From Ignavibacteria bacterium (lineage in GTDB: Bacteria > Bacteroidota > Ignavibacteria > Tepidaquicellales > Tepidaquicellaceae): a DNA stretch of 40,358 bases. Under the pieces are notes generated by a model, which was not told where the DNA came from, searched no databases, and saw only the letters and a program-made list of their open reading frames with translations. Each line of letters opens with the position of its first letter. Within the stretch, counting starts at the first letter, position 1. The position numbers were made by a program, and so were the translations under genes. The stretch is from NCBI GenBank assembly GCA_016788375.1, contig JAEUSI010000001.1:1-40358 (forward strand). The letters run 5' to 3'. Shown in pieces: positions 12,395 through 40,358 of this stretch.

Positions 12395-12417
12395 TTAAGA
12401 ATTATATTTAAAACAAA

Positions 12418-15787: not shown

Positions 15788-15793
15788 AATAAA

Positions 15794-16699: not shown

Positions 16700-16751
16700 T
16701 ATTCATTAATAAACCTCTTTAAATAATAAACAGAAAGAAAATCAGGCATAA

Positions 16752-19720: not shown

Positions 19721-19872
19721 TAATCGGATTTTTGATAAATTTACGCACAATAAGAATAATTGTAAATTCCTTAATTAAACTGTTCCTTTATTTTAATTGT
19801 ATTGAAATCAGATGAAGATTAAATTAAGTTATTCCGTACATTTCCGAAACTTTTTATTTTCCGATAATTAAT

Positions 19873-23180: not shown

Positions 23181-23867
23181 ATGCAGCCGTATTTGTTTCC
23201 GTATATCGGCTATTTTCAGCTTTTAAATCTGGCTGACAAATTTATACTGTTAAATGATGTAAATTTCATTAAAAAGGGCTGGATTAACAGGAATTATATA
23301 CTTGTAAACAGAAAACGGAATTTATTCACAATACCGGTTACCGGCTCCAGTCAGAATAAACTAATTAAAGACATTGAAATTTCTTTTGATAAAAGCAAAA
23401 GAGATAAATTTCTTCTGACTATAGAAAAGAGTTATAAAAAAGCACCTTTCTTCGGAAAAGTTTACGGATTAATTGATGATATTATTTCCGTGAAGACTGA
23501 TATGCTTAATGAACTGATATTGCATTCAATAACTGAAATTAATAAATATCTTGAAATAACGACTGAAATTTCTGAATCTTCCGGGAGTTATCCTGAATCT
23601 GTTTTAAAAGGCGAAGACAGAATTATAGAAATTTGTCAGATTGAAAATGCAGCACAGTATATAAATCTTTCCGGAGGAATGAATTTGTATTCAAAGGAAA
23701 AATTCAGATCAGGAGGAATTGAACTGAATTTTTTAAAGACAAAGAAAATAGTTTACAGGCAGTTTGAAAACACGGATTTCGAAGAATCACTTTCTGTAAT
23801 TGACATACTTATGTTTAATCCGAAAGAGAAAATAAATAATTTTCTCAATGAATATGAATTAATCTGA
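23181..23867 (+). CDS. WbqC-family protein
   Basis: The 228-residue protein opens MQPYLFPYIGYFQLL, continues with ADKFILLNDVNFIKKGWINRN and ends with LMFNPKEKINNFL, the start, middle and end signatures of the WbqC family found in O-antigen and capsule loci. Its biochemical role is not firmly established; it often accompanies amino-sugar modification genes. Relatives usually have about five residues (like MKVAI) before MQPY. Here KNKKIAV precedes in frame, but only non-standard ATT or ATC codons could start it, so ATG 23181 is taken. It heads a plus-strand series and is six bases from the next gene. Confidence 0.88.
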   Translation: MQPYLFPYIGYFQLLNLADKFILLNDVNFIKKGWINRNYILVNRKRNLFTIPVTGSSQNKLIKDIEISFDKSKRDKFLLTIEKSYKKAPFFGKVYGLIDDIISVKTDMLNELILHSITEINKYLEITTEISESSGSYPESVLKGEDRIIEICQIENAAQYINLSGGMNLYSKEKFRSGGIELNFLKTKKIVYRQFENTDFEESLSVIDILMFNPKEKINNFLNEYELI

Positions 23868-23873
23868 ATATAA

Positions 23874-24860
23874 ATGGCGAAGCATATACTTATTCCGCTG
23901 GATTCACCGGATGAATGGAAAAATGCTTTGAAAGGAATCAAGCATTCATATTATCATACCTGGGAAAATTCATATGCGATGAATCTGACAACAGGTAACA
24001 GAACCTTTTTGTATTTATTTGAAAACGGAAATGAAAGGATTATATGTCCTTTATCTGAAAGGAATTTTAAGGGTTATGCTGATCTTGTAACACCTTACGG
24101 TTTTTCCGGATTTGCCGGAACTTCCGGTTATCCCGAGTTCAAAAATTACTGGAAAGAATTTACAGCAGAAAAAAAATATGTCTGCGGATACATCAGTCTT
24201 AATCCGCTGACTGAAAGTGATACTTATTATAATCACGAGGATTCATACAGAACAACAAACCTGTATTTCATAAATCTGAGATTAAGTCTTACGGAACTCT
24301 TTGAAAATCTGGATACCAACAGGAAAAAACAGATAAAGGATTTTAAAAAAGCAGAAGCAGGATTTATTTATGACAGAGACAGGTTGATAAAATTTTTTAA
24401 AAATAATTATTACGGATTTCTGAAAAGGATAAATGCATCATCTGCTAATTACTTTTCGGCAGAAACACTTGAGTTTATCTGTTCGCTTGAAAATGTCTAT
24501 ATGGTCGGCGCAGGAAGCAGGGATTATATTGAAGCGGTTTACATATTTGCATATACTGAGTATGAAGGGATCAGTATGTTTAATGTAGCAACTCCCGAAG
24601 GGCGCAGACATTCACCTCTGCTGTTGTGGAGCGGACTGAAGTTTTTCAGATCAAAGAAAATTCCCGTAATGAATCTTGGCGGGGGAATTAAGGAAGATGA
24701 CAGCGTTGCATTATCAAAAGAAAGATTCGGGGCTTACAAACTTCCATTCATTAATCTAAGGCAGATTTACGATGCTGATATTTACGACAGACTTTGCCGG
24801 GAAACCGGAACAGACAGCATAAACAGGTCCGGGTATTTTCCGGCTTACAGAAAAAATTAA
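23874..24860 (+). CDS. FemAB-like/GNAT acyltransferase
   Basis: The 328-residue protein has the two-lobed FemAB/GNAT_6 layout. The middle has RKKQIKDFKKAEAGF, then a helix-rich segment ending AETLEFICSL. The second half has YIEAVYIFAYTEYEGISMFNVATPEGRR, SPLLLWSGLKFFRSKKIPVMNLGGG and SKERFGAYKLP. The order substrate lobe, then lGG and FG motif, is that of enzymes which attach acyl groups to amino sugars or peptidoglycan. Placed between WbqC and a methyltransferase, an amino-sugar N-acyl modification is likely. It starts at ATG 23874. The acyl donor (acyl-CoA or aminoacyl-tRNA) cannot be read from sequence. Confidence 0.75.
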   Translation: MAKHILIPLDSPDEWKNALKGIKHSYYHTWENSYAMNLTTGNRTFLYLFENGNERIICPLSERNFKGYADLVTPYGFSGFAGTSGYPEFKNYWKEFTAEKKYVCGYISLNPLTESDTYYNHEDSYRTTNLYFINLRLSLTELFENLDTNRKKQIKDFKKAEAGFIYDRDRLIKFFKNNYYGFLKRINASSANYFSAETLEFICSLENVYMVGAGSRDYIEAVYIFAYTEYEGISMFNVATPEGRRHSPLLLWSGLKFFRSKKIPVMNLGGGIKEDDSVALSKERFGAYKLPFINLRQIYDADIYDRLCRETGTDSINRSGYFPAYRKN

Positions 24861-24879: not shown

Positions 24880-25581
24880 TTGTTTACAAAATCAGCAGAA
24901 TTCTATGATGCTTTGTATCACTTTAAAGATTATGCACAAGCTTCGCAAAAATTATCCGGCATAATAAAAAAAATTAATCCTGAAGCAAAAACACTTTTAG
25001 ATACTGCCTGCGGAACAGGCAAGCACATAGAAAAGCTTAAAATTTATTTTGAATGTGACGGGCTTGATATAAGCGGCAAGCTTCTGGAAATCGCAGAAAA
25101 GAGATGTCCGGGGAATAAATTTCACAAAGGAGATATAACTGATTTCAGCTTAAATAAAAAATATGATGTTGTGACATGCCTTTTCAGTTCGATAGCATAT
25201 GTAAAAACCGGGGAGAATCTGATTAAAGCTGTCCGCTGCATGTCAGATCATCTGAATGAAAAAGGATTACTTATAATCGAACCCTGGTTCAGCAAGGAAA
25301 CATTCTGGACTAATACAATAACGGCAAATCATTATGATTCAAAGGATCTTAAAATTTCATGGATGTATAACAGCAAAAGTGAAAATGACATGTCCGTACT
25401 GGACATAAATTACCTGGTCGGGACACCGGAAGAAGTGACATATTTTACTGAAAGGCATGAACTCGGACTGTTCAGTGATTTGCAGTACAGAAAATCGATG
25501 GAAGATTGCGGACTTGAAGTAGATTTTGACAAGGAAGGATTATTCGGAAGAGGTATGTACACGGGAATTAAAAATTTATGA
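24880..25581 (+). CDS. Class I SAM-dependent methyltransferase
   Basis: The 233-residue protein begins FTKSAEFYDALYHFKDYA, the typical first helix of a widespread methyltransferase group, and has motif I LLDTACGTGKH (D41-H49), GLDISGKLLEIAEKR and DVVTCLFSSIAYV. The start is TTG 24880 because the family's N-terminal motif follows at the very next codon. It lies 19 bases after the acyltransferase and 21 before a GT2, so it is part of one transcript. A sugar or amino-sugar substrate is inferred from context; some relatives N-methylate dTDP-amino sugars. Confidence 0.87.
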   Translation: MFTKSAEFYDALYHFKDYAQASQKLSGIIKKINPEAKTLLDTACGTGKHIEKLKIYFECDGLDISGKLLEIAEKRCPGNKFHKGDITDFSLNKKYDVVTCLFSSIAYVKTGENLIKAVRCMSDHLNEKGLLIIEPWFSKETFWTNTITANHYDSKDLKISWMYNSKSENDMSVLDINYLVGTPEEVTYFTERHELGLFSDLQYRKSMEDCGLEVDFDKEGLFGRGMYTGIKNL

Positions 25582-25602: not shown

Positions 25603-26562
25603 ATGAAAGTCAGTGTCTGGATGTCAGCATACAATCACGGGAAGTATATTTCTCAGTGTTTAGACAGCGTACTGAATCAGAAAACAAATTTTGAATTTGA
25701 TATTGTACTCGGCGAGGACTGTTCAACGGATAACACACGGGAGATTGTAAAGAAGTACAGTGAAAATAATCCCGGCAAATTCAGGCTGTTCCTTCCGGAA
25801 AAGAACATAGGAATGATGGAAATGGATGTTGCAACAAGGAAGATGTGTACAGGCGAGTTTATAGCTTTGTTAAACGGCGATGATTACTGGACTGACGAAT
25901 ACAAGCTGCAGATACAGGCAGATTTCATGGAACAGAATCCGGATGCGGTAATGTGTTTTCATAAATCAGAAATAATAAACGAAAACACGGGATATAAATT
26001 TGATTCTTATTATCCGGGAACAGGCGATACGCTTCCTGCTGAATCACTGCTGCTTGGTTATAATCCTGTTATGACTCCGACAGTTATGATCAGAAATATC
26101 ATGGATGTACCTGATTATTATGCCGAACTGCCTTACGGTGACATGCCGTTATATCTGTTATTATCAGAAAAAGGAAAGATAAAGTATATTGACAGAAAAA
26201 TGAGTGTTTACAGAATACATTCAGAAGGTCAGTGGCAGGGTGAAAGCGTGTACAAGAATTTACTTAAAGATCTCAATTTTTACAGAATAATGAACGGGAA
26301 ACTTGGCTTTAAGTATGATAGACAGATCAGGAAAATTTTTTCACAGAGATATTTTGATCTGGTAATATCAGATATAAACAATGACAATTATAAACAGGCC
26401 AGAAGATTTTTCAAAAAATTAGTACTGGCAGATAGTGAATTTCTTTTTGAAAACAAGAGAGATATTGTGAGAATGTTTGAGATTTTATTTGAGACAGCAG
26501 ATAAAAGCAAACACAGAAATCTCCTGAGCAGGGAAGTTCAGTGGAAAATCAGTCAGCATTAA
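25603..26562 (+). CDS. Glycosyltransferase family 2
   Basis: The 319-residue GT-A enzyme has KVSVWMSAYNHGKYI at the N-terminus, LGEDCSTDNT for nucleotide binding (E38, D39), and LLNGDDYW with the metal-binding D93-D94. A C-terminal helical part of about 100 residues follows. The opening VWMSAYNHG and LGEDCS spelling is common in O-antigen GT2s that use an extra Cys. The sugar and linkage are unknown. It starts at ATG 25603 and lies 15 bases before the giant glycosyltransferase gene, so the two products probably act in one assembly line. Confidence 0.9.
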   Translation: MKVSVWMSAYNHGKYISQCLDSVLNQKTNFEFDIVLGEDCSTDNTREIVKKYSENNPGKFRLFLPEKNIGMMEMDVATRKMCTGEFIALLNGDDYWTDEYKLQIQADFMEQNPDAVMCFHKSEIINENTGYKFDSYYPGTGDTLPAESLLLGYNPVMTPTVMIRNIMDVPDYYAELPYGDMPLYLLLSEKGKIKYIDRKMSVYRIHSEGQWQGESVYKNLLKDLNFYRIMNGKLGFKYDRQIRKIFSQRYFDLVISDINNDNYKQARRFFKKLVLADSEFLFENKRDIVRMFEILFETADKSKHRNLLSREVQWKISQH

Positions 26563-26577
26563 AGCTTAAAATAAATT

Positions 26578-29500
26578 TTGGAAATAAAAAATTCGCAGAA
26601 TATTATCGAACCTGTAGCAGCCGGAATCAGGAGACCTCTATGGTCTGTTATGATTCCTGTTTACAATCCGGGCGAGTTTTTACTTGAGAGCATCCGGAGT
26701 GTACTGAAACAGTTTCCGGGTGAAGATAAAATGCAGATTGAAGTTGTAGATGACTGTTCACCAGATGTAAATGTTCAGGAGCTGTTATCAGAACTTAGTG
26801 ATGACAGAGTAGCGTATTACAGAAATCCCGTGAATCAAGGTCATTCATTTAATTTTACAGAATGCCTGAGAAGGGCAAAAGGCGAACTGATACATCTGCT
26901 TCATCAGGATGATATTGTTAATGAAGGATTTTATTCTGCATTTGAAAAAATATTTGAAAAATATAAGGATGCAGGCGCTGTGTACTGCAGGCAGTCATAC
27001 ATAGATGAGAACGGAAGCGTAATGTTTTATTCAGAACCTGATCTGACTGAGACGGGAATACTTGAAGATGCAGTAGTAAAGCTTGCCGAGAAGCAGAGAG
27101 TCCAGTATTGTGCAATGGCAGTGAGAAGACGAGTTTATGAAGATGTCGGAGGATTCATTGCCAAAAACATCGGCTGCGAAGACTGGGAAATGTGGGTAAG
27201 AATTGCTTCGAAATACAAGATTGTTTATGAACCAGAAGCACTTGCTTCATACAGAGTTCATAATCTTACATCAATGACACTGAGAGAAATGCGAACAGGA
27301 TTAGACATGAGAGACATGATGGAAGCTTCTGAAATTTTTGACAATTATGTTCCAAAAGATAAGCGCGAACAGGTAAAACTGTTCAGAAGAAAACATTACG
27401 GAAAATATTCGCTTGAAAATGCAAGAAGACTCTTTACTGAATTCAAAGATGAAGAAGGAGCTGCAGCACAGTTAACCGAAACGATCAGGCTTGATTCTGA
27501 GACAGTTTTTGAAAACTCTGATTTACTATCGGAATTCAGCATACCTGTTGACGGAACCGGAGTATCGGTAATAATCTGCACGGAAAATAACGAAGATGTA
27601 ATTGAACATACATTAAAGTGCCTGATTTATCAGAATGTCCCTGATTACATTCCGTGGGAAATAATTGTTTCAGACAATAATTCTTCCGACAGAACTCTTG
27701 AAACAGCAATAGATATTTTAAGCAAGTCACACTGCAAATTCACATACAGAATATTTGAAAACAAGGATAAAGATTTAAACAGCATAAGAAATAGAGCTGT
27801 AACAGACAGCCGTTACAATTTTATAGTATTCTGCGAGCCGGGAAATTTTCTGAATACAAATTTCATTCATAATGCATCAAAGAATATGATGAAAAATTCC
27901 GATGCCGGAGTTATCGGAGGTTATATTGAAGATGCAACCGAATCAGTAAAGCCGGAATGGTTCGGTGAATACATAAGCGATATATTTGAAACCGGTGAGC
28001 AGTACGAAAACAATTCAGACATAACATGGTCACGGGGATATGTATGGAGTTCCGGGATGGTGATAAGAAAAGAAGCTTTTATTTCATTAATCCAAAAACA
28101 CTTTGTACCTCTTTATGAAAGAGACAATAGATACGGATATTCTTTTTCTAAAGAATTATGCTTTGCGTTAAGATTAACAGGCTGGAGGATTTTTTACAGT
28201 GTTGATCTCAGATTAACAAAATTTATTTGCGGCGATAAATTACGGTCCGGATATTTAAAGCTTGTGCAGAGACATAACGGAGCTGAGTCAGTATACCTGT
28301 CGCCTTATACAGAAACTAAGTTAAAAAGAACAGATGATTTCAGTAAGCTGAAATTTAAATTAAATGTCAGGAGTGAATTCAGAAAATGTCTTCATGAATT
28401 AAGAAAAATAAATAACACAACTCAAAGTACTGAAAGTGAAAAAACTTTTCCGGACAGGAATCAACTGAAGGCAGATTACCTGACAGGAAAAACTGAGGCT
28501 ATTCTGAAAGACATTAAGTCTTACAACAGAAGGCTAAGATTTATAAAGAAATATTCCCGTAAGAAAGAAATTTCATTTTTCAGAACAACTTTTAATTCTG
28601 AATACTTCAGATTTCCACAATATAAAATTAAAAATGACAGACGCGGAGTATCAGTAATATTAGAATATAAAAATAAAACAGCTGACATATTTTACAGATG
28701 CTTAGGAAAAATAGCAGATCAGGTTTTACCGTCTGACTTCAAATGGGAAATTCTTATAATATCCGGAGACAACGACAAGGATTTTTTAAACGGCATTAAG
28801 AAAATTAAATCTTTGTACGGATGCGGGGCTGAATTCAGAACCATCAATGAAGTTAACAGCGGATTGCATCATATACTGAATACGGGAATAAAATACAGCC
28901 GTTATGACACGCTCATATTTCTTAACGATCTTAATTTCATAGAATCCGATTATGTAAGAATTGCATATAAGTCGGTCAGCAAAAACAAGCAGACGGAAAT
29001 AGTAACAGGTAATATTGAGTTTACAAGTGATGTAAAACCTCCGAAATGGTTTAAAGAATATAAACATCTTTATAAGAAAGGTAACATTTTTGAAAACGGC
29101 TTTTCCATTTCTGGAGATAATCATTCCACTGATTCCGATGGCTTTGTAATTAAAAAGCAGACATTGAAAGAGATTACAGACAGTAAGCCTGTTTTAAACG
29201 GAAAAGTTGAAAGCAATGGTGCGGGTGATTCTGAAATTGCCAATTCATTTTTAGAAAAACTTAATTCTCCGGGTTTCAAGATCAGATTAGAACCGAGATT
29301 AAAAATAAAGAAATTCATTACCGTAAGAAAGTTCAGCTGGGAATATCTCCGGGACTTAAATTTCAGATACGGAACAGAAAAGGCAAGAACAGAAATAGCG
29401 GGAAATCCTTCATCAGTTAACGGCAATGGAAATTCAACTAAATGGATTTACAGGGCAAACAGGACACTCGGAGAATTAAAGAAACATTCATTCAAAAAAA

Positions 29501-32500
29501 TATTTTCCGGAAAAGAAGAATATAATGGAGACACTGAAGTTCTTGAGATAGAAGAACTGAAAGGTAAATTCCGTGCGATATTAAAGAACAAAGACAAATT
29601 CATACAGATAAATTCAAACGGAAAATACAACGGATCTTCAAACGGTTCTCCCGAAAATTTCAGAAAAGGCGTATCAGTCGTAATCTGCTGTTATAACAGT
29701 TCAAAAGTAATCAGGCAGACACTTCTTCACATTATCAGACAGAAAGTAACGGATAAAGTTAACTGGGAAGTAATTATTGTGGATAATGCCTCAACTGACA
29801 ATACATCAGATATAGCAGATAGATTCTGGAAAGAGCACAACTGTTTAGCTGACTTTAAAATTGTAAAAGAACAGGAACCGGGATTGAGTGCCGCCCGTCA
29901 GAAAGGAATTGATGCATCGGGTTTTGAATACATAATATTCTGTGATGACGATAATCATCTTGAAGAAAACTTCATTGAAAGAGCATATGAAGTAATGTGT
30001 AATGACGATAAAATCGGAGTGCTGGGAGGACAAAGTATTGCAAAATTTGAGACACTTCCGAAATACTGGTTCAAAGACTGGGATAACAGTTTTGCAATCG
30101 GAAAACAGAATGATCAAACCGGTGACATTACATGGTCGAGGGGTTACGTCTGGGGAGCAGCAATGACGATCAGAAAAACCGCCTGGAAGAAACTTATTTC
30201 CGGGGGATTCAGATCAAAGCTTACAGACAGGAAAGGTAATCTTTTATCGGCGGGTGGAGATACAGAGATATGCTATGCTTTAAGAAATGAGGGTTGGAAA
30301 ATATATTATGATGACCGGCTGAAATTCATACATTTTATCACCGGAGAAAGATTAAAATGGGAATATCTGAGAAAATTATTCAGAGGATTCGGAGTTGCTT
30401 CAACCGGACTTGACGAATACCTGAAACAGATTCCTTTAAAAATCAGAAAGAGAAATCGAATCAAAGTTCCGCAATCTGCAAGAAAGGAACTGCACAGGGC
30501 TTTAAGAATTCTGAGAGAAACTAGATACAGTAAACTTCTGACTTTTAAGAGAAGAAGGGAAGGTGATACCGACATTCCGATGATTGAATATACTTCAGGA
30601 AGGATTGAATCAATTTTAAAGAATCAGCATACTTATAACCGCGGACTAAAACTTCTCAAGAGAACGGCATATAAAAATGATTTCAGATATTTAAAATCCG
30701 TTTTCAGAAAATACGGAAATAATTTTCCTAAATACAGAATTTCGGAGAAGTTTAACGGAGTTTCAGTGATTGTCTGTACATATAACGGAGCAGACAGATT
30801 AGCGGATACTATAAGACATATTGCCAGACAGAAAGTTGATCCCGGAATACTCTGGGAAGTTATTCTTGTTGACAATGCATCAACAGATAATTCAAAGGAA
30901 GCTGCCAGAGAGGAATGGAACAAGCATAAGTGCAGGGCAAAGCTCAGGATTGTGGATCAGCCGGTACCGGGAAAACAGCTTGCGCTTGAGAAAGGGTATG
31001 AAGAAGCAAAGTATGAATACTGGATTACATGTGATGATGACAACTGGCTGGAAGAGAATTTCGTGCAGCTCACATATGAGATAATGAGCAGTAATAAAAA
31101 TGTCGGAGCGCTCGGAGGACCGAATGAAGCTTTATGTGAACTTGAGCCGCCGGAATGGTTTAAATGGTTTCAGAAAGATTATGCTGCAGGACCGCAGGGA
31201 GATATTTATACAGGTAAAGTTTCGGAAGGCGATATAACCTGGAAACGGGGATTTGTATGGGGAGCCGGAATGGTGGTGAGAAAGTCTGCATGGGAAAAAC
31301 TCATTGCTGACGGTTTCAGAACTTCAATGAGCTGCAGAAAAGGAACGGAGCTTTCTTCCGGAGGAGATTCTGAAGCATGTTATGCACTCGTTCTTGCAGG
31401 CTGGCATGTCTGGTATGATACAAGATTAAAACTTAAGCACTGCATGCCGGCAGGCAGGCTTCACTGGGATTATCTGACCAGACTATTTTCCGGATTCGGA
31501 GTGGCAACAGTTGGGCTGGAATTGTATGAAAAAGCAATTAAACTCGGACATGCCGATAAAGATGAAAAAGAGATTTTAAAACAGAACTGGAATTATGAAA
31601 TTAAAAAAGCTATCCGGGAGCTGAGGAAATACGGACTTAAAAAAATTCTGTCTCTGAGATTTTCACAGGACGGAAAAACTGAAATTCCGATGCTTGAATT
31701 TTATATTGCAAAAGTAAAAGAGTTATGGAAAGTCAGGAAAGAATACGATAAGAAGTTCGAAGAAATCAGGAATGCTCCTTGGAAGAAAAGTTTTTCCGAG
31801 CTCAGGAATGAGCACAGGAAATTTCTGGAAAAGGAAAATGATTTCAGATACGGCTGGCCATGGACAAAGGAGAGCATTGGAACAGCAGTAGCAGAAGACA
31901 GTGAAGTTAAAGATTATCCGAAAATCAGCATTCTCACGCCTTCATTTAATTCCGAAAGTACTATTGAAAAAGCCATTCTCAGTGTCTTGAATCAACAGTA
32001 TCCCAATTTTGAACACATTATCTGTGACGGAGGTTCGAAAGACGGCACGGTTGAAATTTTAAAAAAATATCCTCATCTGAAGTGGGTTTCAGAGCCTGAC
32101 AAAGGACAGTCAGATGCAATGAATAAAGCATTTGACATGTCGACTGGTGAAATAATTTCATATCTGAACGCCGATGATTATTACTCGAGGGGAGCTTTTT
32201 TAAAAATTGCAAAAGAATTCAAAAAGAATCCGTCTGCAGAGATGGTAGTCGGCAATTTATTCTTTGAATTTGATAATCACACATTTACAAGAAATGCCGA
32301 GATTGATTACAAAAAAATAATGCTCCCGTTCAGATATATGTTTCCTATAAATCCGGTAAGCTATTTTTATAAAAGAAATGTGCAGACTGAAACAGGACCA
32401 TTCCCGCTGGATAATCATTTTACGATGGATTACTGGTTTTTACTAAAAGCATATCAGAATCACAGGCTTGCAAAGACAGAAGACTACCTTGGAACATTCT

Positions 32501-34386
32501 GCATGAACGGTTACAATAAAACTTCAAATGCAGACAACCGGAAAAATACACACATAAGAGTCCTTTATCACTGCTGGCATTATGACAAAAAAAATCTGCC
32601 TTATTATCTTTACAACTATTATAAGTTCTTCTATTACGATAAGAAGCCGTATAATCTGACTAATCTTTGGAACAAGGCGGGAAAGAATCTCGGCAGAATT
32701 TATTCGGTAATTACTTTAAGGAAAAACAAATATTATAACGAGAAGCTGTATCAGAGTGCAAGGAACAGTTTCTATTCCGGCAAAAAATTCCGGTCAGCTG
32801 TTACACTGCTTACATCTTATATGATTTACCCGAAAGCGGTGAAGCAGAAATCAAGATTCGGGCTGCTTTCTTATTCTGTTTTCGGCATCAAAAATACAGA
32901 GAAGCTGAAATGGTTTTACTTTTTCCTAACTACACCTCCGGGTCTGCCGCTGGCTAACAAACTTCATTACTTCGGGAATAAATTTAAAACCGAGAAAAAA
33001 TCTTTCTGGGGATCATTGCTGCTTTTTCTAACATACCTTATTTCGCCGAAATTTATTTTTAAAGAAAATTATTACAAAAAAGATCAGTCAAGTACCGGAT
33101 TTAAACTGAAATATATGAATCCTTTTTACTGGCTGAAAGCTTTTGTGAATTTTTTCCGTTACAGAAAATACAGAGATGTTTCGTACAATCTTTATCTGAA
33201 GTCAGCGGAGAAATTTTATTTTCACAAATATTTTAAGAGTGTTCTTTATATGTTGCTCTCATTCTTTGTGTATCCTTTTTCAGTTTTTAAAAGATCACGG
33301 TTAAATCAGTTTGCTTATTCCGCGCTGGGAGAGAAAAATACCGGCAGACTCAAAATTCTTTATCATTTATACAAGGATAATCCTGAATATACGCTTGCTC
33401 ACAAGCTTCATTATTACGGCAATGATTTCAAAATAAAGGGGAATTTATTCAAGGGAAACATGATTTTAATGCTGACATACATTATTTCTCCGAAATATAT
33501 TTTCAGACCTTCTTACATACCGAAACCGGAAAAAATAAGATTCCGGGATAAAAGTTTTGTTCAGAAACTGTCATATCTTAATCCTCTTTACTGGTTAGCA
33601 TCTGTTATTAATTTTTTCAGATATAAAAAATACAAAGAAATTTCTTACAATTATTACATAAAAGCCGGAGAGAAATATTATTTTCATAAAAACATACAGG
33701 CGGTATTGTATCTGCTGACATCATTTTTCATTTATCCTCTGTCAGTCGCAAAAAAGTCGAGGCTGAATTTATTTATGTATTCATTTTTCGGGAACAGGAT
33801 ATCGGATAAATTCATGTTTGCTTATCATCTTTACAAAGACAACCCTGAATATTCCTTTCCTCACAAACTGAATTATTACGGCAATGAACTAAGGAAAGAA
33901 GGAAGACATTTGAAAGGAAACTCTGTGCTTTTATTAACATATATTTTATCACCGAAATACATTTCAAAAAGAGAAAAGATAAAAAAAGCAAAAACAGTTT
34001 ACGTTTCAGAATCCATGATTCCGAAAATGGATATTCCTGAAAATTTAATCACCGGAAAAAATTTCAGGGAATTTTCAACAGTAAATACAGGCAGATTCCG
34101 GATTAATCACGGATTCAATTTTAAAAATCTGCCGGGAATAATAAAATACAGACTTGTACTTGTATATCACTATTTCAGATACAGAAAATTCAAGGCTAAA
34201 TCAAAAGAACTATATACCAGAGCGCAGGAAAGTTATCACAACAACAAAAGATTTGACACTGTTAAACTGCTTTTACCTTCTTTTCTTTTGTATCCTGTGT
34301 CAATAGTAAACAGAAATAAACTGAGCCTTATGTATAATTCTATTTTTGGAAATTCCCATACTGAAAAACCGGAGAATAAGAACTAA
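26578..34386 (+). CDS. Giant multi-module glycosyltransferase (six GT2-like domains plus four C-terminal repeats)
   Basis: A single intact frame encodes 2602 residues; typical GT2s have about 300. GT2-like domains start near residues 20, 328, 690, 1031, 1394 and 1780. Domain 1 keeps VVDDCS and HQDD (109-112). Domain 4 has CDDD (1122-1125) and GGDTE (1226-1230); domain 5 has CDDD (1485-1488) and GGDSE (1595-1599); domain 6 has LNADD (to 1867). Domain 2 has CEPG in place of CDDD, and domain 3 has SGDN and LNDL, so both look inactive. Residues 2048-2602 hold four Tyr/Phe/Lys-rich repeats. There is no signal peptide. The TTG start follows the previous gene by 15 bases; the next ATG falls inside domain 1. 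It could build several linkages of one glycan in sequence; the actual product is unknown. Confidence 0.9.
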   Translation: MEIKNSQNIIEPVAAGIRRPLWSVMIPVYNPGEFLLESIRSVLKQFPGEDKMQIEVVDDCSPDVNVQELLSELSDDRVAYYRNPVNQGHSFNFTECLRRAKGELIHLLHQDDIVNEGFYSAFEKIFEKYKDAGAVYCRQSYIDENGSVMFYSEPDLTETGILEDAVVKLAEKQRVQYCAMAVRRRVYEDVGGFIAKNIGCEDWEMWVRIASKYKIVYEPEALASYRVHNLTSMTLREMRTGLDMRDMMEASEIFDNYVPKDKREQVKLFRRKHYGKYSLENARRLFTEFKDEEGAAAQLTETIRLDSETVFENSDLLSEFSIPVDGTGVSVIICTENNEDVIEHTLKCLIYQNVPDYIPWEIIVSDNNSSDRTLETAIDILSKSHCKFTYRIFENKDKDLNSIRNRAVTDSRYNFIVFCEPGNFLNTNFIHNASKNMMKNSDAGVIGGYIEDATESVKPEWFGEYISDIFETGEQYENNSDITWSRGYVWSSGMVIRKEAFISLIQKHFVPLYERDNRYGYSFSKELCFALRLTGWRIFYSVDLRLTKFICGDKLRSGYLKLVQRHNGAESVYLSPYTETKLKRTDDFSKLKFKLNVRSEFRKCLHELRKINNTTQSTESEKTFPDRNQLKADYLTGKTEAILKDIKSYNRRLRFIKKYSRKKEISFFRTTFNSEYFRFPQYKIKNDRRGVSVILEYKNKTADIFYRCLGKIADQVLPSDFKWEILIISGDNDKDFLNGIKKIKSLYGCGAEFRTINEVNSGLHHILNTGIKYSRYDTLIFLNDLNFIESDYVRIAYKSVSKNKQTEIVTGNIEFTSDVKPPKWFKEYKHLYKKGNIFENGFSISGDNHSTDSDGFVIKKQTLKEITDSKPVLNGKVESNGAGDSEIANSFLEKLNSPGFKIRLEPRLKIKKFITVRKFSWEYLRDLNFRYGTEKARTEIAGNPSSVNGNGNSTKWIYRANRTLGELKKHSFKKIFSGKEEYNGDTEVLEIEELKGKFRAILKNKDKFIQINSNGKYNGSSNGSPENFRKGVSVVICCYNSSKVIRQTLLHIIRQKVTDKVNWEVIIVDNASTDNTSDIADRFWKEHNCLADFKIVKEQEPGLSAARQKGIDASGFEYIIFCDDDNHLEENFIERAYEVMCNDDKIGVLGGQSIAKFETLPKYWFKDWDNSFAIGKQNDQTGDITWSRGYVWGAAMTIRKTAWKKLISGGFRSKLTDRKGNLLSAGGDTEICYALRNEGWKIYYDDRLKFIHFITGERLKWEYLRKLFRGFGVASTGLDEYLKQIPLKIRKRNRIKVPQSARKELHRALRILRETRYSKLLTFKRRREGDTDIPMIEYTSGRIESILKNQHTYNRGLKLLKRTAYKNDFRYLKSVFRKYGNNFPKYRISEKFNGVSVIVCTYNGADRLADTIRHIARQKVDPGILWEVILVDNASTDNSKEAAREEWNKHKCRAKLRIVDQPVPGKQLALEKGYEEAKYEYWITCDDDNWLEENFVQLTYEIMSSNKNVGALGGPNEALCELEPPEWFKWFQKDYAAGPQGDIYTGKVSEGDITWKRGFVWGAGMVVRKSAWEKLIADGFRTSMSCRKGTELSSGGDSEACYALVLAGWHVWYDTRLKLKHCMPAGRLHWDYLTRLFSGFGVATVGLELYEKAIKLGHADKDEKEILKQNWNYEIKKAIRELRKYGLKKILSLRFSQDGKTEIPMLEFYIAKVKELWKVRKEYDKKFEEIRNAPWKKSFSELRNEHRKFLEKENDFRYGWPWTKESIGTAVAEDSEVKDYPKISILTPSFNSESTIEKAILSVLNQQYPNFEHIICDGGSKDGTVEILKKYPHLKWVSEPDKGQSDAMNKAFDMSTGEIISYLNADDYYSRGAFLKIAKEFKKNPSAEMVVGNLFFEFDNHTFTRNAEIDYKKIMLPFRYMFPINPVSYFYKRNVQTETGPFPLDNHFTMDYWFLLKAYQNHRLAKTEDYLGTFCMNGYNKTSNADNRKNTHIRVLYHCWHYDKKNLPYYLYNYYKFFYYDKKPYNLTNLWNKAGKNLGRIYSVITLRKNKYYNEKLYQSARNSFYSGKKFRSAVTLLTSYMIYPKAVKQKSRFGLLSYSVFGIKNTEKLKWFYFFLTTPPGLPLANKLHYFGNKFKTEKKSFWGSLLLFLTYLISPKFIFKENYYKKDQSSTGFKLKYMNPFYWLKAFVNFFRYRKYRDVSYNLYLKSAEKFYFHKYFKSVLYMLLSFFVYPFSVFKRSRLNQFAYSALGEKNTGRLKILYHLYKDNPEYTLAHKLHYYGNDFKIKGNLFKGNMILMLTYIISPKYIFRPSYIPKPEKIRFRDKSFVQKLSYLNPLYWLASVINFFRYKKYKEISYNYYIKAGEKYYFHKNIQAVLYLLTSFFIYPLSVAKKSRLNLFMYSFFGNRISDKFMFAYHLYKDNPEYSFPHKLNYYGNELRKEGRHLKGNSVLLLTYILSPKYISKREKIKKAKTVYVSESMIPKMDIPENLITGKNFREFSTVNTGRFRINHGFNFKNLPGIIKYRLVLVYHYFRYRKFKAKSKELYTRAQESYHNNKRFDTVKLLLPSFLLYPVSIVNRNKLSLMYNSIFGNSHTEKPENKN
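27559..28644 (+). repeat. GT2 module repeat 2 (degenerate) within the giant protein
   Basis: Residues 328-689 begin GVSVIICTENNED and keep VSDNNSSDRT, RGYVWSSGMVIRK and the linker after the GT fold. The CDDD metal motif is replaced by CEPG (419-422), and the GGDSE motif is replaced by SFSKE (ending E526). It aligns with modules 4 and 5 and with the separate gene at 34462. Confidence 0.75.
28645..29667 (+). repeat. GT2 module repeat 3 (most degenerate) within the giant protein
   Basis: Residues 690-1030 begin GVSVILEYKN. The nucleotide-binding VDNAS is replaced by ISGDN (728-732) and CDDD by LNDL (782-785), while GAGDSE (881-886) and PPKWFKEY are kept. A GT2-derived module with the sugar-nucleotide site altered is inferred. 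Confidence 0.7.
29668..30756 (+). repeat. GT2 module repeat 4 (intact motifs) within the giant protein
   Basis: Residues 1031-1393 have GVSVVICCYNSS, VDNASTDNT, EPGLSAARQKG, CDDDN, SRGYVWGAAMTIRK and GGDTE, followed by a basic helical linker (RALRILRETRYSKLL). All acidic motifs expected of a working GT2 are present. Confidence 0.8.
30757..31914 (+). repeat. GT2 module repeat 5 (intact motifs) within the giant protein
   Basis: Residues 1394-1779 have GVSVIVCTYNGADR, VDNASTDNS, CDDDNWLEENF, KRGFVWGAGMVVRK and GGDSE, then the same basic linker as module 4. It is close in sequence to module 4 and to the stand-alone gene at 34462-35472. Confidence 0.8.
32719..33060 (+). repeat. C-terminal aromatic repeat, copy 1
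   Basis: Residues 2048-2161 run from RKNKYYNEKLYQSA through LLTSYMIYP and KLHYFGN to FLTYLISPKFIF. It is the most divergent full copy. The first helices look TPR-like; no known domain is recognised. Confidence 0.7.
33163..33504 (+). repeat. C-terminal aromatic repeat, copy 2
   Basis: Residues 2196-2309 run from RKYRDVSYNLYLKSAEKFYF through SFFVYP, YHLYKDNPEY and KLHYYGN to LTYIISPKYIF. The stretch before it (NPFYWLKAFVNFFRY) is also repeated before copy 3, so the true unit is about 150 residues. Confidence 0.75.
33625..33963 (+). repeat. C-terminal aromatic repeat, copy 3
   Basis: Residues 2350-2462 run from KKYKEISYNYYIKAGEKYYF through SFFIYP, YHLYKDNPEY and KLNYYGN to LTYILSPKYI. It is clearly the closest relative of copy 2. 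Confidence 0.75.
34183..34383 (+). repeat. C-terminal aromatic repeat, copy 4 (half unit)
   Basis: Residues 2536-2602 run from RKFKAKSKELYTRAQESYH through LLPSFLLYPVSIV and YNSIFGN, then the protein ends with a charged tail. Only the first half of the unit is present, which suggests an unfinished or trimmed repeat. Confidence 0.65.
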
Positions 34387-34461: not shown

Positions 34462-35472
34462 ATGAACAAAGGTATCTCAATAGTTGTTTGCTGTCACAAC
34501 AGTTCTGCACTGCTTGAACAGACCTTAAAGCATATTTGCAGATTAAAATCTGATTCCGGCATTAAATGGGAAGTGATAATTATTGATAATGCTTCGACAG
34601 ACGATACATTTAAAAAATCTGAAAAATTACTGAAGGAATTTAACTGTCCGGTTTCATTTAAGATAATATCCGAGCCTGAGCCGGGACTTTCAAATGCAAG
34701 AAAAACGGGAATGGACAATTCGGAATATGAGTATATTCTTTTTTGCGACGATGACAACTGGCTTGAAGAAAATTATCTGATTACCGGCTTTGAAATACTT
34801 GATTCTGACGAAAAGATAGGAGCACTCGGAGGTAAAAGTGAAGCAGTAACCGAAACAGAAATTCCCGACTGGTTTGAAAAACATTCCATAAATTACTCTG
34901 TAGGAAAACAGAGTGATATACAGGGTGACATTTCAAATACAAACACAGTATTGTGGGGGGCTGGAATGTTTGTGAGGAAGTCTGCTCTCATCGAACTTTA
35001 TTCAAAAGGATTTTATTCGTTTCTCACGGACAGAAAAGGAAATCAGCTTTCTTCAGGCGGTGACAGTGAAAAATGCTATGCTTTGCGTCTTGCAGGTTGG
35101 AAAATCTGGTATGATGAAAGACTAAAGCTTAAGCATTTCATTCAGGATAAAAGACTGACCTGGGATTATCTGAGAAAACTCAGCAGAGGATTCGGTGCAC
35201 AGAAAATTGATTTTGATCCTTATCTTAATGTATTAGAAAAAAGGAACAATACGGATTCAGATAATAAATGGCATATTCAGGCATTAAGATTAATCGGGAA
35301 ATTAAGAGGATACGGCTTAAGAAAACTGATTTCATTCAATAATAGTCCAGCCGGCGACAATGAAACCCTGCGAATTGAAAAAACAATCGGCCGTTTAAAG
35401 GAACTGCTTAAAATCCGCAGTGAATACAACAGAAGAATTCAGATTGTAGAAACCGCAAAATGGAGAAAATAG
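34462..35472 (+). CDS. Glycosyltransferase family 2, stand-alone copy of the giant protein's internal module
   Basis: The 336-residue protein has GISIVVCCHNSS, IDNASTDDT, EPEPGLSNARKTG, CDDDNWLEEN (95-104), VLWGAGMFVRK and GGDSE (199-203). It then has the same basic helical linker, ending at NRRIQIVETAKWRK. This matches modules 4 and 5 of the upstream giant almost motif for motif and stops exactly where the next internal module would begin. All catalytic acidic residues are present, so it should be active. It starts at ATG 34462, 75 bases after the giant gene. Confidence 0.9.
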   Translation: MNKGISIVVCCHNSSALLEQTLKHICRLKSDSGIKWEVIIIDNASTDDTFKKSEKLLKEFNCPVSFKIISEPEPGLSNARKTGMDNSEYEYILFCDDDNWLEENYLITGFEILDSDEKIGALGGKSEAVTETEIPDWFEKHSINYSVGKQSDIQGDISNTNTVLWGAGMFVRKSALIELYSKGFYSFLTDRKGNQLSSGGDSEKCYALRLAGWKIWYDERLKLKHFIQDKRLTWDYLRKLSRGFGAQKIDFDPYLNVLEKRNNTDSDNKWHIQALRLIGKLRGYGLRKLISFNNSPAGDNETLRIEKTIGRLKELLKIRSEYNRRIQIVETAKWRK

Positions 35473-35503: not shown

Positions 35504-36487
35504 TTGAAAGTTAAAGTATCGATAATAACTACAGTATATAACTGTGAAAAATTCATCAGACAGTCTGTGGAAAGTATTTTGAATCAGACTTACGGAGATT
35601 TTGAATATATAATTGTGGAAGACGGCTCTTCAGACAAAACCCCCGGGATAGTAAAGCAGTTAGCCGCAATTGATAAGCGCATCAAACTTTTAATCAACGA
35701 AAGAAATATCGGAAGAGTAAAATCTCTTAATAAAGCTCTGGAAAATGCACAGGGAGAGTATGTGGCATTGCAGGATGCTGATGATTTTTCAATGCCGGAG
35801 AGGCTTGAAAAGCAGATTGCATTTCTGGATAAAAATCCGGATTATGTTCTTGTCGGCGCTAATATTATTGTCATAGATGAATTTGAAAATTTCATTTCCA
35901 AACCAGAGAGACCATTGAAAAATCCCGATGCCAAATTCAGCATGCTTTTCAGATGTACATTTGCAAATCCGAGCATTGTCTACAGGAAAAAAATAACCGA
36001 CGAACACAATTTACGATATGAAGATAATTTTATTCATGCCGAAGATTTCAGAATTATGTCCCTAATCGCAAGACACGGGAAAATTTATAACTTCGAAGAG
36101 CCTCTTGTAAAATACAGAAGGCACAGCGGTAATAACAGCGTGATGAATTTTGACATACTTAATCAGGGCAGTGTACAAATTGTAAAGGAAAACCTTTCTC
36201 TGATGAACATTGATTCCGATGAAGAACAGGTTACAAGAATCAGGAATCTCATTTCTTCCAGAGGAATCAGAAGCGAACATTTGTATGAAGATCTGAGTTT
36301 ACTTTTGAAAATTATGAAATCTTTTCAATCTGAAAATAAGCTCGGCAAAAACAGGGAAATACTTTTTATACTTAGGAGAATGATGAAATGGACAGGTCGA
36401 AGAAATGTTCTGACAAAACCCAGATATACATATTTATTTTTTTCCTTACTTTCATTTTATGCAAAAGAAAAATTTTTTAAATGGTAA
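35504..36487 (+). CDS. Glycosyltransferase family 2
   Basis: The 327-residue GT-A enzyme has KVSIITTVYNCEKFI, VEDGSSDKT (E39, D40), INERNIGRVKSLNKAL, LQDADDFSMPERLEKQ (D91-D94 metal site) and FANPSIVYRK, the common form of O-antigen GT2s similar to WaaE/EpsE relatives. A C-terminal region of about 90 basic and hydrophobic residues follows. The start is TTG 35504, since the first strand begins three codons later. It lies 31 bases after the previous GT2. Donor and acceptor are unknown. Confidence 0.9.
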   Translation: MKVKVSIITTVYNCEKFIRQSVESILNQTYGDFEYIIVEDGSSDKTPGIVKQLAAIDKRIKLLINERNIGRVKSLNKALENAQGEYVALQDADDFSMPERLEKQIAFLDKNPDYVLVGANIIVIDEFENFISKPERPLKNPDAKFSMLFRCTFANPSIVYRKKITDEHNLRYEDNFIHAEDFRIMSLIARHGKIYNFEEPLVKYRRHSGNNSVMNFDILNQGSVQIVKENLSLMNIDSDEEQVTRIRNLISSRGIRSEHLYEDLSLLLKIMKSFQSENKLGKNREILFILRRMMKWTGRRNVLTKPRYTYLFFSLLSFYAKEKFFKW

Positions 36488-36743: not shown

Positions 36744-37724
36744 ATGGCAAATAAGCTTGTTTCGGTAATTATTCCGTTTTTTAACAGAATAGATCTTCTG
36801 AAAGCATCGATGAAATCAGTGACTGAGCAGACTTACAGTCCGATCGAATTAATACTTGTAGATGATCATTCGACCGAGAAGCCTGATGAGGATTTGATAA
36901 AGAAATATTCCTCAAAAAATGTAAAAATAAAAATCATACGTAACGAAGTTAATCTCGGACCGGGGTTATCCAGAGAAGAAGGCAGGCTGATAGCAAAGGG
37001 TGAATATTTTGCTTATCTGGATTCTGATGATTTCTGGCATGATCAGTTTCTGGAAAAACTCATTTATTTGCTCGAAAAAAACTCCGATGTCGGAATGGCA
37101 TACAGCAAGACGCTGCTTATCAGAAATACGGGAAATTTTCTCCGGAATAAAAACGATCAGACATTTGACAAAATTATTCCCATCCTGTTTGATGTTCACG
37201 GAAGACCCTGGGCAACGGGAGCATGTGTCTGGAAGAGGCAGATTGTTAACAAGATTGGCAACTGGTCCAGTTCAAGAATATGGGAGGATTACGAATATGA
37301 TGTCAGGGCTGCTATAATAAACAATAAAATTATACATGTTCCTGAAGTATTGTTTTATGTAAATATGGATTCAAAGGAAAAAATTTCTCTGGTAAAAAAT
37401 ACCGAACAGATGATTATGGATAAGGCTAATTCTATACTTAATATATCGCGTTTTTTAAGAAAATCGAAATTCTTCAGTGATGCTGACATCAAAAAAAGGA
37501 TAACTTATTATCTTTTAACTTCCTGTGCCACTCTTTCGGATTTTAAATCCGACAAGGGTCTCATAAAAAATCTGTTTAAGGAATATTATTATTGGAAAGG
37601 AAAAAGTTTTACTCCTGTAAGTATTTTTACTCCGATTTTTCCTTCAAAGGTAAATTCGAAAATATTCAGAAAGATAAGACAATATTTTACATTGTTAATC
37701 GGATTACCATATTTTTACTTTTAA
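36744..37724 (+). CDS. Glycosyltransferase family 2
   Basis: The 326-residue protein has LVSVIIPFFNRIDLL, LVDDHSTEKPDEDL (D40-D41), NLGPGLSREEG and AYLDSDDFWHDQFLEKL (metal site around D93-D96). GACVWKRQIV and WEDYEYDVRA supply the acceptor-side catalytic residues (ED). The last about 90 residues are basic and hydrophobic. This is a canonical single-domain GT2. It is separated from the preceding GT2 by 256 bases, so it may have its own promoter. Neither base composition nor motifs suggest inactivity. Sugar specificity is unknown. Confidence 0.9.
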   Translation: MANKLVSVIIPFFNRIDLLKASMKSVTEQTYSPIELILVDDHSTEKPDEDLIKKYSSKNVKIKIIRNEVNLGPGLSREEGRLIAKGEYFAYLDSDDFWHDQFLEKLIYLLEKNSDVGMAYSKTLLIRNTGNFLRNKNDQTFDKIIPILFDVHGRPWATGACVWKRQIVNKIGNWSSSRIWEDYEYDVRAAIINNKIIHVPEVLFYVNMDSKEKISLVKNTEQMIMDKANSILNISRFLRKSKFFSDADIKKRITYYLLTSCATLSDFKSDKGLIKNLFKEYYYWKGKSFTPVSIFTPIFPSKVNSKIFRKIRQYFTLLIGLPYFYF

Positions 37725-37789: not shown

Positions 37790-40358
37790 ATGAGATTTCT
37801 AACCGGATTAATACTGATTTTAAGCTGTTTCACGTTAATATCAGGTAAATCATCAGCTCAAAATTACAACTGGATTACACCCGGAAAAACATACCTGAAA
37901 ATGTATGTGACAGAAGACGGGCTGTTCAGAATAAATAAATCTGATTTTAACAGTGCCGGAATAGATGTAACTGACATTGATCCCAGAACAATTAAAGTTT
38001 TAAATCTCGGGCAGCAGATTCCTATATATTTTTCAGGAGAACAGGACGGAAAGTTTAACAATAATGATTACTTTGATTTTTACGGAACACGTAAATACGG
38101 CGGTCTGACGAATACATATACAGAGACAAATGCGGTTTTTTATGTTACGAACGAGTATTACGACCTTTATTCTGACACAAATTTTTACTGGATAGACTGG
38201 GGCGGATCTAACGGCTTAAGATACTCTTCAACTGATTACACATCTTCCGAATTATTTCAGAATAATTTTTTCAACGGCAAGCTGCATTTTGAATCTGACA
38301 AGTATTATTCCCAGGGAGAAAATTTTTCCGCTGCGGAATACAGATACTTATCTACGGAAAAATTCAAGGGAGAAGGGTGGTACTGGAAACTTATAGGAGA
38401 TAATCAGCAGCTGAGCGATACTTTTTCACTGCCGGTTCTTTTTCCTCTGCCTCAGACCGCTTCAATAAAGTTGTTTGCTTATCCTACCGTGAGAAACACC
38501 TTAATATTAAATGAACACAATCTTCAGATCAGAATTAACGGAACACTTATCAGTACTCTCATATCAAATGATTACAGCAGGTTTGACACTACAATCAGTT
38601 TTTCAAGTTCGCTTCTATCAAATATTTCTGTGAATAATGTAACGATTACTTATGTCCCGGCTCCGGGTTCAACAGGCGGAGTTCATTTTGATTTTTTTGA
38701 ATTACAGTTACCGAATCTGTATAAATTACTTGACAATAAATTTTCCTGCAGCACAGGTGTATCAGATACAGTGTCAAAGCAATTTAACATTACAGGATAT
38801 AATTCATTAAATCAGGTTAACATTTATGATGTAAGAAATAATTACAGAATACCGGCTTTCAGTTCAAGTAATGACACTTTAAAATTCACAGGTAAAAGCA
38901 ACGGAAAATTTGAAATTGTAAATTCAGTAATTACAAAAAAGCCTGTCAGGATCAGACAGAGATCTGTGCCTGATCTTGTGTCTGTTTCTAACGGCGCAGA
39001 TTATCTTGTCATATACAATTCTGTATTCAGTTCTCAGGCTGAACAATTAAGAGCTTACAGGCAGACTCATGATAATTTCAGAAGTATAAAAGCTGAAATT
39101 GAAGATATTTATGATATTTTTAATTACGGTTTAGAAAATCCGGTAGCTGTAAGAAATTTTTCAAAATATGTTTTTGAAAACTGGCAGCTGCCGAAACTTC
39201 AGTATATATGCCTGCTCGGAAGAGGTTCATTTGATCCTAAAAAGAATATTCCTTCTTCGACTTATTACAAAAATCTTGTTCCTGTTTATGGTTATCCGAA
39301 TTCCGACGGTTATTTTGCAAATGTGAATACAGGAACATTCTTTTATTATGATCAGATAGCCATAGGAAGACTTCCCTCATATACAGTTTCTGAAGCCCAG
39401 ACTATGGTTGATAAAATCATAGCTTATGAAAATCAGACTTCAAATCCTGAAGCATGGTGGAAGACATTTAATTTCATTACAGGAGGCGGGACATATGCTG
39501 AGCAGCAGACACATCAGCAGAGATCAAATTTTGAGATCAACACATATGTAATTCCTCAGAACATTGCCGGTAATCCGGTAAAGATTTACAGAACAGATAC
39601 ATCCGGATCCAATACTTATAATCTTTCCGATTCGGTCAGAAATTCAATCAACAGAGGAACTCTGTTTATAAATTTCAGAGGACATGCAGGCAGTCATGAC
39701 TGGGAAGTTCTTTTGAATGATCCGAATACTCTTAACAACGGAAACAAACTTCCGCTTATACTTAGCCTTACTTGTTTCACGGGGGAAAATTCCAAAACTG
39801 ATTACAGAGGTTTCGGAGAAAGATTTGTTTATCTGCCCGGAAAAGGAGCAATCGGTTTTGTGGGAACAACAGGATGGAGTTTCGGTTCGAGCGGAAATGA
39901 TTTTGGTACATATATTATTCAGTCTCTCAAATCTGACACTTCAAGAAGAATCGGTAATCTTCTGAAAGTTGCTGGCAAATCAATGAGCAGTGATTCTCTT
40001 TCATTCAATACAAGGCATACAGTTAACTGTTATAACCTGCTCGGTGATCCGGCTGCAACACTTAATCTGCCGAAGCATCCCGAATTTCTGATCAACAACA
40101 ACGATTATAAGTTATCAGACCCTGCTCCTGAAGTGAAAGTTCCGGCTGTATTAACTGTTTTCCCCAAGAATTACGGATTGTATGCCGATTCATGCAAAAT
40201 CAGATTTCATCTTACCAAAAATAATATTACTTATTCCGTTAAGGATACAATTATCAGAACTTTCAGATTTTCAGACAGTGTAAAATATAAATTTACTCTT
40301 GACTCGGCGGGTGTATACAGAATGCTTGTATCACTTGATATAGACAACTGGTTTAACA
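37790..40358 (+). CDS. Gingipain-type C25 cysteine peptidase, PorU-like (partial at right edge)
   Basis: An open frame runs from ATG 37790 to the window end (856 codons, no stop). A signal peptide (MRFLTGLILILSCFTLISG) ends at SSAQ, near residue 24. An N-terminal beta domain follows (VTEDGLFRINKSDF; QDGKFNNNDYFDFYG). The C25 caspase-like domain has YLVIYN, LLGRGSFDP, catalytic His632 in FRGHAGSHDWE and Cys662 in LSLTCFTGEN, then GAIGFVGTTGW and NLLGDPAATLNLP. In Bacteroidota such proteins are either the type IX secretion sortase PorU or secreted T9SS substrates; the missing C-terminus prevents deciding. It is probably exported and is not obviously tied to the glycan operon 65 bases upstream. 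Confidence 0.88.
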   Translation, partial: MRFLTGLILILSCFTLISGKSSAQNYNWITPGKTYLKMYVTEDGLFRINKSDFNSAGIDVTDIDPRTIKVLNLGQQIPIYFSGEQDGKFNNNDYFDFYGTRKYGGLTNTYTETNAVFYVTNEYYDLYSDTNFYWIDWGGSNGLRYSSTDYTSSELFQNNFFNGKLHFESDKYYSQGENFSAAEYRYLSTEKFKGEGWYWKLIGDNQQLSDTFSLPVLFPLPQTASIKLFAYPTVRNTLILNEHNLQIRINGTLISTLISNDYSRFDTTISFSSSLLSNISVNNVTITYVPAPGSTGGVHFDFFELQLPNLYKLLDNKFSCSTGVSDTVSKQFNITGYNSLNQVNIYDVRNNYRIPAFSSSNDTLKFTGKSNGKFEIVNSVITKKPVRIRQRSVPDLVSVSNGADYLVIYNSVFSSQAEQLRAYRQTHDNFRSIKAEIEDIYDIFNYGLENPVAVRNFSKYVFENWQLPKLQYICLLGRGSFDPKKNIPSSTYYKNLVPVYGYPNSDGYFANVNTGTFFYYDQIAIGRLPSYTVSEAQTMVDKIIAYENQTSNPEAWWKTFNFITGGGTYAEQQTHQQRSNFEINTYVIPQNIAGNPVKIYRTDTSGSNTYNLSDSVRNSINRGTLFINFRGHAGSHDWEVLLNDPNTLNNGNKLPLILSLTCFTGENSKTDYRGFGERFVYLPGKGAIGFVGTTGWSFGSSGNDFGTYIIQSLKSDTSRRIGNLLKVAGKSMSSDSLSFNTRHTVNCYNLLGDPAATLNLPKHPEFLINNNDYKLSDPAPEVKVPAVLTVFPKNYGLYADSCKIRFHLTKNNITYSVKDTIIRTFRFSDSVKYKFTLDSAGVYRMLVSLDIDNWFN

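Follow-up and report, generated by a model that had tools for sequence, protein, structure and literature searches.

A six-module GT2 protein with two predicted pseudo-glycosyltransferase modules in a glycan operon of Ignavibacteria

A gene of an Ignavibacteria bacterium encodes a single chain with six GT2-like glycosyltransferase (GT) modules (M1 to M6), of which M2 and M3 lack the catalytic motifs in every homologue and are predicted to be pseudo-GTs. It is this conserved dead pair, and not the module count, that is the surprising part. The reading that we favour, with moderate confidence, is that the protein is a cytoplasmic multi-GT synthase in which the two pseudo-GT modules act as a scaffold, and that it builds a sulfated and methylated surface glycan.

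In several bacteria multi-GT chains fix the order of the sugars in a polymer, and those that have been characterised consist of two or three modules. The present chain links six, with four sites intact and two dead but conserved, and so offers a natural test of GT linkage, which may serve to template the order of the sugars, to channel the acceptor or to space the GTs. In addition, the chain would be a clear bacterial case of pseudo-GT domains kept within a synthase, parallel to EXT2. The sulfation genes and the PorU-like peptidases of the locus point to a surface glycan that might anchor proteins, in a little-studied phylum.

The gene and its product

The window, that is the whole stretch of DNA analysed, covers bases 1 to 40,358 of a 116-kb contig in a 3.54-Mb draft genome and starts at the contig edge (table 1). 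Open reading frame listing and translation gave 2602 codons that are read from a TTG start with zero internal stops, which bears out the single unbroken 7.8-kb frame claimed in the preliminary description of this DNA. TTG is also the start near the same conserved N-terminus in two homologues (G017 and G001), with GTG in G010 and ATG in G011. Uninterrupted homologues are present in independent assemblies (G010, 2474 aa; G017, 2461 aa; G011, 2456 aa; G022, 1954 aa; G013, approx. 1950 aa), and in two further genomes the gene is broken by contig ends. Of direct DNA repeats with 30 nt or more the gene contains one, which is 100 nt long and whose copies, at 72% identity, are too diverged for collapse or expansion in assembly. 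Chance, a frame artefact and collapsed or expanded repeats were rejected on the basis of the intact homologues and of this diverged repeat. Coding on the reverse strand was rejected as well, the antisense of the gene holding two short open reading frames only, and so was a transmembrane synthase, as the hydropathy profile is devoid of convincing transmembrane segments, with a single marginal one in the C-terminal repeats.

Table 1. Features of the window that are discussed in the text (strand and positions as in the window; activity as predicted from motifs).
Feature	Position	Strand	Remarks
CysC, CysD-like, CysN	15191..18011	+	sulfate activation (PAPS supply); conserved in locus
Sulfotransferase-like protein	18111..18830	+	KCGGSS-type motif by eye; no Pfam match
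Second sulfotransferase-like protein	18845..19750	-	weak Pfam Sulphotransf/Sulfotransfer_3
WbqC-family gene and 328-aa gene without Pfam match	23181..24860	+	conserved operon start
Methyltransferase MT_e	24880..25581	+	conserved in operon
GT2_u, single GT2	25603..26562	+	directly upstream; conserved
Multi-GT2 gene	26578..34386	+	2602 aa
M1	26611..27297	+	GT2; HxDD (D111-D112) and EDWEMW (E201-D202) kept; predicted active
M2	27559..28257	+	HpsE-like GT-A fold; DxD replaced by CEPGN (residues 419-423), GGDxE lost; predicted pseudo-GT
M3	28645..29337	+	HpsE-like GT-A fold; DxD and GGDxE lost; predicted pseudo-GT
M4	29665..30372	+	HpsE-like GT2; CDDDN and GGDTE kept; predicted active
M5	30754..31482	+	HpsE-like GT2; CDDDNW and GGDSE kept; one of the most conserved modules; predicted active
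M6	31915..32562	+	different GT2 subfamily; NxDD and MDYW kept; predicted active
C-terminal A-B-A-B-A-B-A helical-hairpin repeats	32725..34350	+	residues ~2050-2591
GT2_d1	34462..35472	+	standalone HpsE-like paralogue, 53% to M4; motifs kept
GT2_d2, single GT2	35504..36487	+	conserved in operon
GT2_d3, single GT2	36744..37724	+	conserved in operon
First of two tandem C25 peptidases	37790..40358	+	PorU/PorU2-related; extends beyond window

The Pfam model PF00535 matches the protein in six separate stretches (whole-protein E value, 3.9e-119), and its cut-off of 23.3 bits is passed by each module, the two weakest scoring, alone, 53.3 and 27.4 bits; M2 and M3 exceed the cut-off also when each is searched singly. 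With purpose-built profiles the modules were placed at residues ~12-240, 328-560, 690-920, 1030-1265, 1393-1635 and 1780-1995, in essential agreement with the starts near residues 20, 328, 690, 1031, 1394 and 1780 that had been proposed at the outset. The repeated C-terminal region noted at that stage is also real and consists of four units A of approx. 54 residues alternating with three units B of approx. 46 residues. The layout is A-B-A-B-A in the other six-module homologues and A-A-A in the five-module form (see below); units 2 and 3 of the present protein both match the same unit of the G001 homologue, so that the extra A-B pair is a lineage-specific duplication. The region is predicted to fold as all-helical hairpins, with low confidence (pLDDT 55), and neither unit A nor unit B was found in other proteins of the scanned loci.

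Catalytic motifs

A DxD motif followed by a downstream acidic motif (ED, GGDxE or DxW), taken as the mark of a competent GT2, is present in M1, M4, M5 and M6 and missing from M2 and M3. The comparison of each module across eight genomes revealed that the intact modules keep their motifs throughout, namely H-x-DD and EDWEMW in M1, CDDDN and GGDTE in M4, CDDDNW and GGDSE/T in M5, and N-x-DD and MD(Y/F)W in M6. At the place of DxD, the homologues carry CEPGN, CKPGN, CNPGN, CNPGE or CNGRF in M2 and NDLN, NEYN, SEND, NEFS or NELT in M3, and GGDxE is absent from both modules in all of them. A related genus (g13, with genomes G022 and G013) has five modules, in the order intact, dead, dead, intact, intact, so that exactly two dead modules directly follow M1 in both the six- and the five-module forms. 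Six active steps are thus not supported, in view both of the loss of DxD and of the acidic catalytic motif from M2 and M3 in every homologue and of the recurrence of two dead modules in this genus. From their motifs, M1, M4, M5 and M6 are predicted to be active and M2 and M3 to be pseudo-GTs, bearing in mind that loss of DxD is not strict proof of inactivity. More than one motif-intact GT module per chain, as in polymerases of the WbdA/K4CP type, is found in either form (four here, three in the five-module genus).

AlphaFold modelling of M2-M3 yielded two GT-A folds (mean pLDDT, 76.5) with an uncertain relative placement (pTM, 0.50), and M2 and M3 are predicted, on the basis of this model, to retain the GT-A fold. 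The best fold matches in the PDB are K4 chondroitin polymerase and heparosan synthase 2, at approx. 12% identity; the global TM-scores are low (0.2-0.3), which probably reflects domain placement. The nearest solved structure for M6 is the second GT of K4 chondroitin polymerase.

Genomic context

The gene lies in a glycan operon, in keeping with the glycan-assembly context that had been suggested for it. In relatives the operon has the order WbqC, 328-aa gene, methyltransferase, GT2, multi-GT2, three GT2 and two C25 genes, with exceptions due to breaks at contig ends and, in G017, to a minor deviation close to the operon start. The 328-aa gene (at 23874) resembles FemAB by eye but has no Pfam or PDB match, and a FemAB-like identity was therefore not assigned. 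The CysC/CysD/CysN, sulfotransferase-like and methyltransferase genes are close to the operon in relatives too, and FkbM and several methyltransferases are also conserved nearby. In four loci of other genera (L029 in G010, L032 in G011, L034 in G022 and L035 in G013) one or two methyltransferase domains are fused to the sulfotransferase-like domain that the window encodes as a gene of its own (18111-18830).

On the minus strand the window holds a block of DegT aminotransferase, epimerase, formyltransferase and Gfo/Idh genes. Three polytopic membrane proteins without Pfam match and with 9-10 predicted transmembrane segments (845-2494, 3943-5454 and 5533-7296) are possibly GT-C enzymes or a polymerase/ligase. 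Two adjacent secreted-type proteins of 236 and 240 aa (11684-13140) each have an N-terminal hydrophobic stretch and end with CGLF, a hydrophobic segment and a basic tail, resembling a sorting signal.

A Wzm/Wzt-like ABC transporter is absent from the window; it is found on the same contig, approx. 20-30 kb away, in G011, G022 and G013, and G000 and G010 carry it on other contigs. The gene pair at the left edge of the window continues, in G011 and G022, into a co-directional cluster of DegT, ABC ATPase, ABC permease, C25 and WecG genes, which in the source genome is on contig C166. This arrangement, the copy on C166 and the position of the window at a contig edge make ABC-dependent export plausible; flippase-like genes are also present in the genome.

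The tandem C25 genes scored 353-363 bits with the NCBIfam model of the PorU2 N-terminal region (cut-off, 450) and 295-328 bits with that of PorU (cut-off, 420), so that they are related to PorU/PorU2 but below the membership cut-offs. They end with a T9SS-type C-terminal domain, and extra C25 genes occur in the genomes that encode the multi-GT protein. Past the window end (L041:1-2668) the first C25 gene, whole in relatives, is split into overlapping frames of 869 and 774 aa by a frameshift that is either an assembly error or real. Family-wide, a WecG/TagA/CpsF glycosyltransferase gene adjoins a PorU-like C25 gene or a C25 pair within polysaccharide clusters (L049, L160-L171, L174-L178), which suggests that T9SS-sortase-like peptidases are generally linked to dedicated glycans.

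Distribution

The closest full-length relatives are those of Ignavibacteriae bacterium HKST-UBA123, uncultured Ignavibacteria bacterium SRR2107183_bin.48 and Bacteroidetes bacterium SZAS-88 and SZAS-89. In the family-level group to which the source genome belongs, the multi-GT protein is encoded by 8 of the 29 genomes, representing 5 of the 16 genera; besides the genus of the source genome, four genera of this clade (class Ignavibacteria) have homologues that are intact, at 1950-2474 aa. The module order, whose conservation in full-length homologues was to be checked according to the preliminary description, is the same in the relatives across the five genera. Among 245 genomes of the class the protein is restricted to those eight, and in a ninth a fragment of 296 aa, with one module, lies at the edge of a contig. 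In a phylum-wide scan of 198 genomes the matches outside the source genome were single-module genes only. A viral origin was rejected after a scan of viral contigs that returned no relative, as was plasmid spread, for which one plasmid with a single-module match (39%) was found.

Function and evolution of the modules

In the mechanism that we favour, the protein would be cytoplasmic and would not span the membrane, M1, M4, M5 and M6 would add successive sugars to the backbone or repeat unit of a surface glycan, and M2-M3, placed between M1 and M4-M6, would serve as a spacer, as a scaffold or to bind the acceptor. The hairpin repeats at the C-terminus might dock the chain onto the face of the membrane, onto an export complex or onto neighbouring GTs, which is a guess in view of the low-confidence model of this region. 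Neighbouring enzymes would then sulfate and methylate the glycan, export would possibly proceed via the ABC transporter encoded in the cluster next to the locus, and the tandem PorU-like C25 peptidases may attach T9SS cargo to it. In Porphyromonas gingivalis, PorU cleaves the cargo and attaches A-LPS (PMC8545088). By analogy, one may speculate that the retired GT-A pair is an internal scaffold and that the sulfated glycan is passed by the PorU-like C25 peptidases to type IX-secreted proteins, as a lineage-specific counterpart of the A-LPS anchor, but we regard this extended scheme as unlikely.

A processive polymerase, in which M4 and M5 would alternate in the manner of K4CP or WbdA while M1 and M6 prime or cap the chain, with ABC-dependent export, is a rival that we rate as rather less than probable. 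In its favour are the close paralogy (46% identity) and strong conservation of M4 and M5 and the match of M6 to the second GT of K4 chondroitin polymerase. ABC-dependent glycans, moreover, are usually polymerised by multi-GT chains (PMC11231755), and in relatives the locus has an ABC transporter cluster next to it. However, the five-module genus has one intact HpsE-like module only, which would make an alternating pair inessential unless the downstream standalone copy substitutes for the missing partner, and neither a chain-length regulator nor a terminator was identified.

As to their origin, M2-M5 are paralogous copies of a single HpsE-like unit, with 26-46% identity, and the gene directly downstream, at 34462, is a fifth, standalone copy of it; M1 and M6 come from other GT2 subfamilies. 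Six unrelated specificities are therefore not what the chain contains. The HpsE model NF038302 gives 509 bits for the whole protein (cut-off, 300), a value summed over six stretches with M4 as the best. In a tree the modules group by position and not by genome, so that the module order was fixed before the genera split; the dead modules have long branches and the placement of M3 is uncertain. Unfused counterparts, with an M1-like gene (approx. 340 aa) immediately followed by an HpsE-like gene (approx. 360 aa), were seen in 11 of 74 loci, which were picked by motif and hence are no census, mainly in Bacteroidota (e.g. Pontibacter, Fibrivirga and Paraflavitalea). We infer that neighbouring GT2 genes fused, that the HpsE-like unit was duplicated and that two of its copies lost catalysis.

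The dead modules evolve several times faster than the intact ones. Identities within the six-module form are 32-42% for M2, 21-33% for M3, the least conserved module, 56-65% for M4, 61-83% for M5 and 69-82% for M6, and two species of the five-module genus share 29% identity in one dead module, as compared with 87% in the module that comes next. Such rates would suit functionless, decaying remnants tolerated between useful modules, an explanation that we find doubtful: M2-M3 are in frame in every genome examined, their GT-A fold is predicted to be intact, two dead modules, and never another number, follow M1 in both forms, and for the closest pair (G017/G002, the other pairs being near synonymous saturation) the dN/dS ratios of 0.15 for M2 and 0.14 for M3, as compared with 0.035, 0.061, 0.010 and 0.016 for M1, M4, M5 and M6, indicate relaxed but purifying selection. 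The same open frame, predicted fold and purifying selection could be claimed for a six-step assembly line in which all the modules are active, M2 and M3 using a different donor with a metal-independent or otherwise altered mechanism, but this is quite improbable given that both motifs are gone from M2 and M3 everywhere with no common replacement, that each lineage has different residues at the site, and that conservation is by far the lowest in this pair (21-42% versus 56-83% for M4-M6 in the six-module form).

Comparison with known systems

A literature search for chains with at least four GT domains returned no bacterial example, the hits being EXT and collagen GTs only. Genomes of the same class do, however, encode three such chains, namely a 2293-aa protein with three GT2, two GT4 and TPR (G055, L045:6704-13582), a 1756-aa protein with a methyltransferase, two GT4, two GT2 and TPR (G049, L046:6638-11905) and a 1726-aa protein with three GT2, one GT4 and a methyltransferase (G051, L047:6107-11284). 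The statement that bacterial fusions usually have two or three GT domains was thus too low for this class, where chains carry four or five, mixed with methyltransferase or TPR domains; since these uncharacterised chains exist, module number alone is not new and six is an extreme. They share with the present protein the large number of GT domains per chain but mix GT folds in another domain order, whereas the present chain is all GT2 with a duplicated HpsE-like unit. HpsE itself, the cyanobacterial hormogonium polysaccharide GT2 (NF038302), is the nearest model for the module type of M2-M5 and is, unlike the six-module chain, a single-module protein.

K4CP and heparosan synthase 2 likewise consist of tandem GT2/GT-A modules and are the best solved relatives by sequence (for M6) and by fold (for M2-M3), but they have two modules, both active, with approx. 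12% identity and another chain organisation. The EXT1-EXT2 heparan sulfate polymerase likewise retains a catalytically inactive domain, the pseudo-GlcA-T domain of EXT2 within the polymerase complex (PMC9675754), although it is a eukaryotic GT47/GT64 heterodimer and the present protein is a single bacterial chain of GT2 modules. With WbdA (Klebsiella O3/O5, E. coli O8/O9), which has two or three GT modules and makes ABC-dependent glycans (PMC11231755), and with WsaE, the present protein would share several GT modules in one cytosolic chain, devoted to a surface glycan, for which those systems have a partner ABC exporter (PMC11231755, PMC2943079). In WbdA and WsaE, however, the two or three modules are reported to be active, while the chain described here has six GT2 modules, two of them without catalytic motifs, carries a helical repeat tail and lacks a fused terminator.
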